From positions 1-22,308 of IMG/VR virus record IMGVR_UViG_3300025853_000738: a stretch of DNA of 22,308 nt, one strand, 5' to 3'. A program made the position numbers and the translations under genes. Under the pieces are notes generated by a model. That model searched no databases and was not told where the DNA came from. It saw only the letters and a list, made by a program, of their open reading frames with translations. Below, one piece after another: positions 4,123 through 13,040 of this stretch (the first letter of the stretch is position 1; every line of letters begins with the position of its first letter). The stretch comes from a virus.

Positions 4123-4300
4123 GGTTTTTCAAAAACCATAATAATTAAATTATCATTTAAAAAAATTTAAAAATTTAGAAACATTTTTTAAAAATATTAA
4201 ATTAAAAAAAAATAATTTTATAAAATTTTAAAAAAACTACAAAAATATTTTAAAAATTTTTTGGTATTTTATAAATTATATTTATTAAACATTCACCAAG
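4123..4300. other. A+T tract, candidate unwinding element of an origin
   Basis: A perfect palindrome, GGTTTTT-C-AAAAACC (4123-4137), is followed by about 150 bases with only a handful of G or C. They are built from runs of A and T such as TTTAAAAAAATTTAAAAA. No gene is present. Directly repeated protein-binding motifs on one side and an easily melted A+T tract on the other is the usual layout of plasmid and phage replication origins. No known initiator gene lies adjacent, so the origin assignment is inference. Confidence 0.5.
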
Positions 4301-4308
4301 GGATTGGT

Positions 4309-4530
4309 TTAATATTCACAAATAAATTCGTAATCTTTCATTACTTTATTTATGTATGACTTCATGAAAAATTCTTGAGTTGATGGGAACCATTCATTTG
4401 CATATTTACAAAACCAGTATTTACCACGGTGAATAACCCATCTATTTTTACCGTAATTAAACCACACTATTGCGGTTCCCTTTTCTGGATGAAACCAGAT
4501 ACCTTCTTTAATCTTTACATCTTCTTCCAT
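4309..4530 (-). CDS. hypothetical protein, 73 aa
   Basis: I place the start at ATG 4530 (MEEDVKIKEGIWFHPEKG), preceded by AAGGAGAGACTTA. The frame is open further up but without a ribosome site. The product is rich in aromatic residues (IVWFNYGKNRWVIHRGKYWF), which suggests a small beta-sheet fold. There is no family match that I can name. It is the last gene of the leftward group 5833-4309 and ends at the edge of the A+T tract. Confidence 0.6.
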   Translation of the reverse strand: MEEDVKIKEGIWFHPEKGTAIVWFNYGKNRWVIHRGKYWFCKYANEWFPSTQEFFMKSYINKVMKDYEFICEY

Positions 4531-9236: not shown

Positions 9237-9439
9237 TGAGTGACATAACATACTTAGATAAAATACATAAAGATTTAGAACGTATTTCCCATCAACGTAA
9301 GAATGTTACTAGCGATGGTTTAACCGTTTACGAAAGAGAAAATCTTGAACTCTTGGCGTTCATGGCAAAACGGTTAATTAATATAGAAATAAGAATTGAC
9401 GAGTTAAACGAAACAGTTTGGAAAAATACGGAACATTAA
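9236..9439 (+). CDS. hypothetical protein, 67 aa
   Basis: The ATG at 9236 overlaps the stop of the previous gene (TGATG) and follows GGGGGGAGAG, one of the strongest ribosome sites in the window. The product is helical (MSDITYLDKIHKDLERISHQ ... AFMAKRLINIEIRIDELNET). The heptad spacing of Leu and Ile in the second half suggests a coiled coil. No family is recognised. The stop overlaps the next start by one base (TAATG). Confidence 0.6.
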   Translation: MSDITYLDKIHKDLERISHQRKNVTSDGLTVYERENLELLAFMAKRLINIEIRIDELNETVWKNTEH

Positions 9440-10296: not shown

Positions 10297-10579
10297 TATG
10301 TTCCAGCTTGCATTTAGGACAGATCATTCCTCTACTTCTCGCCCATATATAACAGCAATCATCGTTATCGCATTGAGCGTAAAGCGTGGGGAATTGCTCT
10401 ATTTTATTTTCCATTTTTCGCGCCCACTGTATTTTATTTCTACAAACGTTACAGTAACTTCTAGGTGTTCCTTTCCAACTAGACATTGAAAAACGACTAA
10501 AAGGTAAAACCTCTTTACAACCGTTACACTCTTTTATCTTTCGTTCGTGACAAGTGAACGAAGCTACACCTTTAGGCAT
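10286..10579 (-). CDS. double zinc-site protein, 97 aa
   Basis: The first half, CNGCKEVLPFSRFSMSSWKG, then CNVCRN, is the zinc ribbon often found in front of phage HNH/endonuclease VII-like domains (CxxCxxxxPxxxFxxx...YCxxCR). The second half has CDNDDCC and ICPKC, a second cysteine cluster. No nuclease DH/N motif follows, so this looks like a stand-alone zinc adaptor rather than an enzyme. The ATG at 10579 overlaps the primase-helicase stop by eight bases with GAGGTG upstream. Confidence 0.7.
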   Translation of the reverse strand: MPKGVASFTCHERKIKECNGCKEVLPFSRFSMSSWKGTPRSYCNVCRNKIQWARKMENKIEQFPTLYAQCDNDDCCYIWARSRGMICPKCKLEHNEQ

Positions 10580-12512
10580 TTTTCACCTCTTTACCGTCCA
10601 TATCCGTTATCATATAAACTTTTCCACCTGCCTCAATGTCAGGGTTAAGTATCGTTTTAACCATCTCGCCCATGTGTCCTTCATAACAAAGAAGTGCTAG
10701 AGCTTGATTCGTTCTCTCTTTGCTTATCTTATCTGCTTGAGCGTTGAAGTGTGCTGTGATTATTTCTTTATTTGGGTATCGTCCAGCGTTTCGTTGAGTT
10801 TTAATATAACCAAAAACTCTTTCAGTATCGCTCGCTTTGTCTAACTCTTCTTTAATCTTCTCAGCAACGACAGTTACTTTAGAAAATAAGAAACCTTCTC
10901 TAACAATTAAAAACGGTTCATTAAAAAGCGGACTACCATCTGAAAACTTATTCACGTTGCACATCATTGCTGATTGGTTCTCAGTCAAGTCGTTTCCGGT
11001 TAACTGTTTGTACTCTTCATGATCGACAAGACGAAGGACGCGACTCACTCTTGAATGAGAAGGTAACGCTGTTCCACCACGACCTGCAAATTGAGTCATG
11101 TCCTTGGTAGATGAAGAAGCTTTACCCATGTGATTAATCATCTCAACACACGCATTACTTTTAACAACTAAACGTCCCATAAATTTCGCGACGATTTTAG
11201 ACATGTCGTTAAGTGCGCTTTCACTTCCCCAAAACGAAGCAATTGGATCAAATACAATCATATCGGGTTTTAAATCTTCGATTGCTTCACATACTTTACT
11301 ATACGCCTCGGTGTTTAACGTTATAAAACCATTACGAGCTTTATCGATTAAACAAAGGTCTTCATCTTTTTTAATTAGAATATTGTTTTTTATTTTTGCT
11401 ACTTTCTCACGATCTTTATGAATGTCCATTTGTTTTAAAATAGAACCTATCATCGCCGCTAATTTTTCAGCGGTGTCTTCACCTGTGACAAATAGAGTAC
11501 GACCACCACCTTCTAACAAACACTCATGGCCAAGGAAAGGTTCACCTAGAGCAAGACATACTGCCTCGTAAAGTTTCAATGTTGTTTTACCTGTACCACC
11601 ATCGGCGGTTGTTAAGTGAATATCTTGAGTTGACCAATCTTTAAAAATCTGTGGTCTTTTTAATTTGGAGAAATTCATTAAATCGTATGTTGTAAAAAAC
11701 GATGGTGTCCAACGTTCTGGTGGCGTTGCTTCAAAAGTCGGAACAAGTAGTTCAGGTTGTCGATTACCGAAGGGACTTATAACAGGGTTTGAGGCACCAC
11801 CTTTAAGTCCTGATTCAATTGTTGCCCTTGCTTCTTGATCTGGTTTACCGCGCTCTTTAGCAGCGTTAAATAACTCGTTATAAGCATGTTCACGATCAAC
11901 GCTTCCGCTCGTTACTAATTGGCCTATTTTATATGCTTCAGTGTTGAGAACGTTGTTAGATTCTCCTTCGGGAGCGTTGCGTATATTTTCACACGATTCA
12001 TCTAATTTTTGCTTGACAATTTCCGGGTCGATTTTAACCACATCTTCTAGATTGACAGCTTCTTTTTCAACCGCTAGGGCGTGGGATTTAAACCAATCAG
12101 GAGCTTCACAAATTGGAGTGTTATCAACGCCATAAAAAATTACATACCCATCTGCCCCACGAATATCTAAACCTTGATCGAAACCAGCGCGGTTCCCATA
12201 TCGTTTTCCATCTTTAGGATATTTGAAAAAATAATGAACACCACCTGAACGAGTTCGTTGACTCATTGTAATTGGGATATTGTATTTTTTAATTGTTTCA
12301 AGACCGCCACTTTTAACATCAACGTCGAGAACGAGCAGGTCGTTATCAGGGCCAGTCGGGAGTCCGTAGAATTTTAGTTGAGGGTATTGAGTTGACCAAG
12401 AATTAATAACGCCTTGGTCGCTTGAACAATCTTCGCGCCATTTAAAACCCTTGACTGGTACTTTACGTCCATCGGGCGTGAGAGTAGCTGGAAAGAACTT
12501 CCAAATGCTCAA
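10572..12512 (-). CDS. primase-polymerase / RepA-like helicase fusion, 646 aa
   Basis: A two-domain replication protein. Residues 1-140 are an archaeo-eukaryotic-type primase-polymerase (prim-pol): LDVDV with catalytic D63 and D65, SGGVHYFF with H93, and LDIRGADGYVI with D116. Residues 290-500 are a hexameric RecA-like ATPase: Walker A GGTGKTT (305-311), Walker B DMIVFDP (417-423), INHMGK (459-464) and GRGGTALPSHSRVSRVLRL. The order matches phage and plasmid D5/RepA-type primase-helicases that unwind and prime at the fork. The start is TTG: an in-frame TAA lies three codons upstream and the conserved FFPATLTPDGRKVPVKGFKW follows at once. AGGAT sits eight bases before it, and the stop of a 15-codon leader overlaps it. 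Confidence 0.9.
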   Translation of the reverse strand: MSIWKFFPATLTPDGRKVPVKGFKWREDCSSDQGVINSWSTQYPQLKFYGLPTGPDNDLLVLDVDVKSGGLETIKKYNIPITMSQRTRSGGVHYFFKYPKDGKRYGNRAGFDQGLDIRGADGYVIFYGVDNTPICEAPDWFKSHALAVEKEAVNLEDVVKIDPEIVKQKLDESCENIRNAPEGESNNVLNTEAYKIGQLVTSGSVDREHAYNELFNAAKERGKPDQEARATIESGLKGGASNPVISPFGNRQPELLVPTFEATPPERWTPSFFTTYDLMNFSKLKRPQIFKDWSTQDIHLTTADGGTGKTTLKLYEAVCLALGEPFLGHECLLEGGGRTLFVTGEDTAEKLAAMIGSILKQMDIHKDREKVAKIKNNILIKKDEDLCLIDKARNGFITLNTEAYSKVCEAIEDLKPDMIVFDPIASFWGSESALNDMSKIVAKFMGRLVVKSNACVEMINHMGKASSSTKDMTQFAGRGGTALPSHSRVSRVLRLVDHEEYKQLTGNDLTENQSAMMCNVNKFSDGSPLFNEPFLIVREGFLFSKVTVVAEKIKEELDKASDTERVFGYIKTQRNAGRYPNKEIITAHFNAQADKISKERTNQALALLCYEGHMGEMVKTILNPDIEAGGKVYMITDMDGKEVKNA

Positions 12513-12556
12513 AGTGTTTTATCCTGGTTTAATTTCATATTGTTTTTAAGCCTCAT
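12509..12556 (-). CDS. 15-aa leader peptide coupled to the primase-helicase
   Basis: Leftward from ATG 12556 the frame MRLKNNMKLNQDKTL ends with TGA at 12511-12509, overlapping the TTG start (12512-12510) of the primase-helicase. The AAGAGACTTTTA before its ATG resembles the GGAGACTTAAA leaders of four other genes here. Terminating ribosomes would be placed at the poor TTG codon, which suggests translational coupling. The GAGACTT of its ribosome region pairs with an upstream AAGTCTC, so translation may be regulated by RNA folding. Confidence 0.45.
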   Translation of the reverse strand: MRLKNNMKLNQDKTL

Positions 12557-12559
12557 TAA

Positions 12560-12641
12560 AAGTCTCTTAGAAACCTAGTGGAAAAGTGGAGACTTAATTC
12601 ACTCTTTCAATTGACGGATCAGGAAAATCTATCCACTAGGT
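12560..12641 (-). promoter_or_regulatory. predicted RNA pseudoknot before the leader peptide
   Basis: In the leftward RNA four blocks appear in order: ACCTAGTGGA (12641-12632), AAGTCTC (12595-12589), TCCACTAGGT (12582-12573) and GAGACTT (12566-12560). Block 1 pairs with block 3 (10 bp) and block 2 with block 4 (7 bp), both perfectly. The interleaved order is that of an H-type pseudoknot with loops of 36, 6 and 6 nt, or of two competing hairpins. The last block is the ribosome site region of the leader ORF. This is the only sizeable gap (135 nt) in the genes around it. Confidence 0.6.
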
Positions 12642-12647
12642 AGAAGT

Positions 12648-13040
12648 TTATTTTGGTAGAATATTACCGAAACTGTCAACAGAATTAATAAATCCTGCGT
12701 AGCCTCCATTCATAACCACCCAATTAATGAAGTTAAGTTGCGCTCTTTCTCGTTTGTCAAATTTTTTATCAGGGTTCCAAGCTTCTTTTTTACATTCAGC
12801 AGCGGTGAAAACCGCTAAGGTTTTACCAACCATGTCAGGGGTAATAAGTATACGAGTGAAACCGATAAGGTCGCTAGAAGCTGAGTTTTCTTGGTGTTGT
12901 TTAGAAATGTTTCCAAGACCGTAACGGACCATACGACCTGTTTCGTCTTTGAAGGCCCCGCAATTATTTCTCATTAAAAAACAATCTTTGGAACGAGCGT
13001 AAAGTTGCGCTTCCTGCTGTACTGTTGATTCATCTTTCAT
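12648..13040 (-). CDS. VRR-NUC domain nuclease, 130 aa
   Basis: QQEAQLYARSKDCFLMRNNCGAF at the N-terminus is the conserved helix-Arg-Asn-Asn of VRR-NUC proteins. SSDLIGF (D57) and AAECKKEAW (E82, K84) give the PD-(D/E)xK metal site, with Q101 of RAQLNF after it. Members of this family, including the nuclease domain of FAN1 and many phage proteins, cleave branched DNA, so a Holliday-junction or flap-cutting role in phage recombination is likely. The ATG overlaps the upstream DUF3310 stop by four bases. After its stop comes the 135-nt RNA element. Confidence 0.85.
   Translation of the reverse strand: MKDESTVQQEAQLYARSKDCFLMRNNCGAFKDETGRMVRYGLGNISKQHQENSASSDLIGFTRILITPDMVGKTLAVFTAAECKKEAWNPDKKFDKRERAQLNFINWVVMNGGYAGFINSVDSFGNILPK

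Follow-up and report, generated by a model that had tools for sequence, protein, structure and literature searches.

The window, i.e. the whole stretch of viral DNA that was analysed (22,308 nt; IMG/VR record IMGVR_UViG_3300025853_000738), carries on its minus strand a small nuclease gene followed by a primase-helicase gene, and the 135-nt gap between the two holds the RNA element described here. The nuclease gene matches an endonuclease PHROG and no Pfam family; its product is presumably a VRR-NUC-like protein. The two genes and the parts of the element are as follows:

12648..13040, minus strand: upstream nuclease gene (PHROG endonuclease), its TAA 6 nt before P1
12641-12632, minus strand: a, the 5' strand of P1, ACCTAGTGGA, pairing with 12573-12582
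12629..12633, minus strand: conserved GATAG, the end of P1 and the junction to P2
12610..12628, minus strand: P2 hairpin (c), with TGATC in the loop; short in the window's own clade
12600..12608, minus strand: junction GAA and the 5' strand of P3, AGAGTG (12605-12600), found by RNAalifold, pair counts and an own-versus-other test
12597-12589, minus strand: b, the loop of P3 and putative anti-start strand, TTAAGTCTC, with the core AAGTCTC at 12595-12589
12588-12583, minus strand: 3' strand of P3, CACTTT
12582-12573, minus strand: a', the 3' strand of P1, TCCACTAGGT
12566-12560, minus strand: b'1, GAGACTT, first pseudoknot partner (permutation test and covariation)
12554-12546, minus strand: b'2, GAGGCTTAA, located at the start-codon position, the second partner for this b
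12509..12556, minus strand: 15-codon ORF, its ATG (12556-12554) overlapping the beginning of b'2
12509..12538, minus strand: shorter in-frame mini-ORF, MKLNQDKTL, the likelier leader (counterpart in L093, MNIRNNF)
10572..12512, minus strand: primase-helicase (Prim-Pol and AAA_25), with a TTG start at 12512

The preliminary description had proposed that four blocks of this gap, in the order a-b-a'-b', form an RNA pseudoknot hiding the ribosome site of a leader peptide coupled to the primase-helicase. The blocks lie exactly where they had been placed and, on the minus strand, form perfect stems of 10 and 7 bp; with b'2, b forms 9 bp, including one G-U. Of 5000 dinucleotide shuffles of the gap, 11 produced crossing perfect stems of at least 10 and at least 7 bp, and the same criterion singled out 9 of the 986 overlapping 135-nt tiles of the window, at three places, while folding of the gap without pseudoknots gave no signal relative to shuffles (z -0.23). 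Taken alone, the window sequence is moderate, suggestive evidence for the pseudoknot, and the decision falls to covariation in relatives. Elsewhere in the window, a very A+T-rich intergenic region (4129-4320) contains many crossing inverted repeats, possibly a matter of composition only, and at 9320-9377 a perfect 10-bp inverted repeat, TTAACCGTTT/AAACGGTTAA, lies within a small ORF and crosses 7-bp repeats.

Relatives were gathered by searching with the primase-helicase and the nuclease, which yielded 21 distinct primase loci, with proteins ~38-66% identical to that of the window over the best segments (exact window copies aside). Copies were counted once (window = L001 = L002 = L003, L093 = L094, L100 = L101, L126 = L135 and L166 = L214). 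The element is present in 16 of these 21 loci, all of one phage primase-helicase family. In fourteen loci, the space that follows the nuclease, up to the primase or to an inserted gene, holds an element laid out in the same way; L107 and L112, which form one clade, have a simpler, H-type version that lacks P2 and P3 and retains P1, b and both b' copies. In the remaining five (L095, L100, L103, L105 and L106), this place is without an element, also according to model R2. On the primase tree, element presence requires three changes, as expected for an old element lost three times, and 20 of 500 label shuffles gave a cost of three or lower; five changes are required for the inserted gene, whose labels were assigned by eye. 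Twelve of the 14 full primase-linked members have, as judged by eye, the stop codon of the nuclease no more than about 10 nt ahead of P1, the exceptions being L009, which is rearranged, and L116, where the stop lies inside the junction.

HNH-type endonuclease genes are inserted between the nuclease and the primase in L015/L099, L016/L104, L102 and L009. In the first three cases, the inserted gene begins directly after b'2, the usual start place of the primase, and in L009 it lies before the element. The nuclease frame of L009 contains an internal stop, and its C-terminal LKDILQ recurs after the inserted HNH gene (L009:2840-2890), as if the gene end had been duplicated or rebuilt. An ORF inserted in L106 resembles the HNH-type insertions, by eye only.

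Comparison of these loci indicates that the element is a conserved sense-strand RNA, composed of a three-way junction (P1/P2/P3) and a pseudoknot between the P3 loop and the downstream b'. Covariation in homologues, the check proposed for the pseudoknot, gives very strong support to P1 and P2 and clear support to P3 and to both pairings of b (b:b'1 and b:b'2); the pseudoknot is thus real, and the stems first described were incomplete, P2, P3 and the second b' having escaped notice. In 13 primase-linked sequences, 95.6% of the P1 and P2 cells are paired and 17 of 18 pairs show double changes, with a covariation score of 0.81 versus 0.22 in shuffles, none of 500 of which reached it. P1 alone shows double changes in 11 of the 11 pairs counted, and P2 in 6 of 7 pairs, with 95.7% of its cells paired. 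The values are similar in the set from other gene contexts, comprising seven distinct rows, one of which (L142) is a non-member, in an alignment fitted to the model: 93.5% of P1 and P2 cells paired with 14 of 16 pairs doubly changed, and for P2 alone 97.1% with double changes in 5 of 5 pairs. L110, in which the register was lost, was excluded from the P1/P2 count, and L107 and L112, devoid of P2 and P3, stand outside the counts for P1/P2, P3 and both b:b' pairings.

In P3, the conserved GAMAAG contributes its AG, which together with the bases that follow pairs with the bases just before the 3' strand of P1. Across 21 sequences, with the register held fixed and every bulged member scored as a failure, 81.9% of its cells are paired; the covariation score is 0.59 versus 0.22 in shuffles, none of 500 being as high, and the summed own pairing of the variable part was matched by none of 100,000 permutations. 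Neither the number of pairs nor that of pair types is exceptional; these were reached by 498 and 76 of 500 shuffles, respectively. Between the window (AGAGTG/CACTTT) and L093 (AGAACG/CGTTTT), two compensating changes have occurred in this helix. RNAalifold found P1, P2 and P3 in the model-fitted alignment, which leans to the model, and recovered P2 alone from the raw MAFFT alignment, in which P1 is out of register in several rows. Among 20 distinct members, GATAG is present in 15, GAMAAG in 14 and both in 11. Within the stems, G-U outnumbers A-C by 20 to 2, a ratio to which the preference of the covariance model itself for G-U may contribute; this excess, together with the position on the coding strand before a start codon, suggests that the RNA acts in the mRNA.

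By the same comparison, b' is duplicated, with two tandem downstream copies complementary to the same b. When the second, non-overlapping site for b was scored and summed over the 16 primase-linked members, the total was 244.5 against 113 +/- 19 in shuffled sequences and exceeded the maximum of 2000 shuffles (171.5). The b of the window is complementary to the two copies over 7 bp (b'1) and 9 bp (b'2), and its second-site score was reached in none of 2000 shuffles; the second copy is not significant by itself in L116 (p 0.20) and L102 (p 0.09). Own pairing averaged 16.9 versus 11.1 for b'1 and 16.6 versus 11.0 for b'2, each sum being reached by none of 100,000 permutations, and a member's own partner ranked first in just 7 of 16 members for either copy. 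The covariation scores of b:b'1 and b:b'2 were each reached by none of 500 shuffles, and the counts of doubly changed pairs by 10 (b'1) and 52 (b'2) of 500; these are not independent tests, since the two copies resemble each other. The two pairings mostly differ little in energy, and in 13 of 21 members that with b'1 equals or exceeds the other in stability; the largest exception is L111, in which the b'2 pairing is much weaker than that of b'1. L116, whose b'2 was set to N, was left out of the energy comparison and of the start-codon distances. Two phage records (L140; L166/L212) each hold two elements that differ in b, a point in favour of pairing in cis.

As measured in 15 members, the distance from P1 to the beginning of a b' copy is 6-20 nt for b'1 and 18-35 nt for b'2. 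From the end of b'2 to the start codon that follows, it is -1 to 8 nt; in the window and L093, this start codon is that of the mini-ORF. GAGACTT had been taken for the ribosome site region of the leader; pairing of a start region with b holds, and the copy at the start position is b'2 rather than b'1, which makes b'1 the likelier competing partner. When b departs from the ribosome-site consensus, b'2 does so as well: in L126, it reads GTTCAGT, and the duplex with the anti-SD amounts to -0.7 kcal/mol. An extended ribosome site, AAGGAGACT, which resembles b', is common to three genes of the window, where it lies upstream of 7495, 13435 and 15338.

As had been described, the TGA of the 15-codon ORF (12511-12509) overlaps the TTG start of the primase-helicase (12512). 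The leader peptide itself fared less well, its ATG at 12556 being ACG in the closest relative, L093; the two share a shorter in-frame ORF from a later ATG (12538 in the window). Most other primase-linked members have no leader, and the primase or an inserted endonuclease gene begins right after b'2. A leader peptide is possible but not general. The ATG at 12556 could use b'1 as a ribosome site. Coupling of the leader to the TTG start of the primase-helicase is uncertain, given the weak ribosome site of the primase-helicase itself, AGGA at 12525-12522. A similar overlap occurs in L138, where b'2 is followed, at about 1400 on the minus strand, by a two-codon ORF, ATG AAT TGA, with the TGA overlapping a TTG; the start there is uncertain because it is with this TTG that the listed endonuclease frame begins.

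The element extends beyond the primase-helicase loci. Model R1, built from six sequences with the window held out, recovered from 575 kb the window (E 5.8e-5) as well as L093, L016, L017, L098 and L111 (E 0.015) and, unfiltered on 60 kb, L009 (E 0.0013) and L110 (E 0.05); the window shows both traits of the family, P1 and P2 with the junction bases and a b that matches two downstream copies. A DNA pattern of the junction bases occurs in 71 viral stretches, and a stricter version in 25. With L004 set aside, R2 recognised 6 of 70 pattern loci at E<=0.012, in seven places (L140 twice, L132, L138, L166, L126 and the copy of the latter, L135), and the record of L166 holds a further copy, L212. All seven distinct non-primase elements precede genes with endonuclease matches:

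L126 and the second copy of L140: next gene GIY-YIG
L132: PHROG homing endonuclease (1.3e-9), ranking behind an unknown PHROG
First copy of L140, L166 and L212: endonuclease or HNH PHROGs
L138: Bro-N plus HNH protein, its best PHROGs being anti-repressors

As a control, we considered the pattern loci outside the family, 64 in number; at the corresponding place, 39 of them contain an ORF of 60 aa or more. Among these 39 ORFs, Pfam returned HNH_3 in one and the homing-endonuclease zinc loop in one, and several HNH families are listed among the PHROGs, with one member each. A second b' was found in all six endonuclease-linked members tested, with p<0.05 in five and a borderline value in L132 (p 0.05); L212, which was not included in this test, pairs with the second copy only with a bulge, as judged by eye. 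L142 (E 0.58) was dropped from the family as it fails the b' test.

Searches of wider collections returned no further copies. R1 and R2 identified no additional member among the nuclease-fetched loci L018-L089, and a nucleotide search of 12400-12800 against 50,697 phage records gave no match. The primase relatives in these records are distant (27 records; the top one with 72% coverage at 22% identity), and a model search of two of the 27 yielded no element. When 11 public phage records, among them those of T4, SPO1 and Bacillus phage G, were searched with the model, a single weak match emerged, to Geobacillus virus E3 (E 0.31), located within an annotated coding sequence; the negatives of this search carry little weight since it missed two true copies (L138 and one of those in L140). 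The sole match in 192 genomes of one phylum (E 4e-4) was, by eye, a chance inverted repeat in a coding sequence.

We think it reasonably likely that this three-way-junction RNA, the P3 loop of which would pair with one of the two b' copies, sets the translation of the next gene. Strand b can pair with one copy at a time, so that the two pseudoknots are mutually exclusive: pairing with b'2 would cover the start region of the next gene and pairing with b'1 would leave it free. In the simplest reading, b:b'2 would be the closed-start state and b:b'1 a competing, permissive one. Given exclusive pairings of mostly close energies, we infer a bistable translational switch, which a small input could set, be it the arrival of ribosomes at the end of the upstream gene, the order of folding, or a ligand or protein acting at the conserved junction. 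With the nuclease stop close before P1, ribosomes finishing that gene could, hypothetically, open P1. The switch would act on the mini-ORF in the window, which may be coupled to the primase-helicase, directly on the primase-helicase in many relatives, and on endonucleases elsewhere. The proposal that the folded RNA shuts off expression accordingly survives as putative control of the start region and needs amendment in that there are two exclusive pairings, only one of which would cover the start. Autoregulation by a replication protein, suggested at the outset, is not favoured because the same RNA precedes endonuclease genes of several families.

The element might instead be a timing brake as in T4 homing endonucleases, with the start hidden in long read-through transcripts and exposed in shorter late ones that begin inside the element, the second b' being a reinforcing copy. 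Such hairpins with a late promoter are described for I-TevI, segB and Aeh1 mobE (PMC2988022), and the association of all seven non-primase members with endonuclease matches fits this model. A scan with a sigma-70-like consensus, which does not cover phage-type promoters, revealed no promoter-like site inside the element of the window, the nearest being located just upstream, at 12679-12650; moreover, conserved junction bases and three covarying helices exceed the needs of a simple hairpin, and we consider the timing brake unlikely. Decidedly less probable is a protein-bound operator, in which a phage protein on the junction or the b' repeats would repress translation in the manner of T4 gp32. 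The gene 32 pseudoknot provides a precedent (PMC3014915), and some unpaired bases are conserved, but b and b' vary together, and autoregulation by the downstream product would require many different binders, given the variety of downstream families.

The compact junction with a pseudoknot beside endonuclease genes also brings to mind a self-cleaving or otherwise catalytic RNA by which the message of the next gene would be trimmed; the lariat-capping ribozyme, too, precedes a homing endonuclease. Considering that no Rfam family matches over the element and that two members keep the pseudoknot while having lost P2 and P3, a catalytic role appears very improbable. A transcription terminator or attenuator, consisting of P1 followed by U-rich sequence, is hardly credible: a U-rich stretch follows P1 in many members but several have no U run (the window, with TTCTAA, L009 and L140), and a scan for loops of 3-8 nt, to which P1 itself is invisible, detected nothing resembling a terminator between 12300 and 12700. 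With ~50 nt enclosed by P1, the element is unlike the short-loop, GC-rich intrinsic terminator. Translational bypassing, suggested by GGATAG, was discarded, as every full primase-linked member apart from L116 has the end of its nuclease frame ahead of P1.

The element had been considered new, and this stands: none of the 4227 families of Rfam release 15 matches over it, either in the window (E<=1) or in L004, L093, L109, L110, L009, L118, L119 and L210-L214 (E<=5), and the titles and abstracts returned by searches of the open-access literature contain no description of it. Cis-acting RNAs controlling translation in phages are a known kind, the T4 endonuclease hairpins and the gene 32 pseudoknot being the nearest in function. 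Like the hairpins of T4-type homing endonucleases (I-TevI, mobE and segB), the element is a cis RNA directly before phage endonuclease genes, with the start region predicted to lie in a helix. The T4-type structures are described as hairpins accompanied by a late promoter, whereas here there is a three-way junction with a pseudoknot and two alternative partners, conserved across phages and found also before a primase-helicase. A cis-paired endonuclease start region fits the seven non-primase members by comparison, and the next large gene in the window is the primase-helicase. With the T4 gene 32 pseudoknot, the element shares the nature of a phage mRNA pseudoknot before a replication gene that probably acts on translation start. 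In gene 32, the pseudoknot is situated 67 nt ahead of the start and is where binding of gp32 nucleates (PMC3014915), whereas b'2 of the element is itself at the start codon and the downstream gene varies.

Among riboswitches, SAM-II, preQ1-II and glutamine-II combine a folded domain with a pseudoknot that involves the ribosome-site region; the element differs from these in its two tandem partners, its endonuclease and primase contexts and the lack of an Rfam match. The T4 gene 60 bypass element with mobA is another small RNA element associated with a homing endonuclease. Unlike in gene 60, no bypassing is expected here, since the frame of the upstream nuclease is closed before P1 is reached in all full primase-linked members but L116.

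We conclude that the element represents a recurring RNA family and probably a new kind of phage gene switch. More tentatively, and with considerable doubt on our part, it might constitute a new riboswitch-like class, with a junction sensor, one anti-start strand and two tandem, exclusive partners, which would travel with varied endonucleases and would have been kept for long by a primase-helicase operon. With one strand and two alternative partners, the covarying family offers a clear, testable logic; it also connects endonucleases, mostly of the homing type, to a replication gene. If the proposed switch is real, selfish endonucleases and core phage genes would use a common RNA control device, the conserved junction of which may be a sensor.
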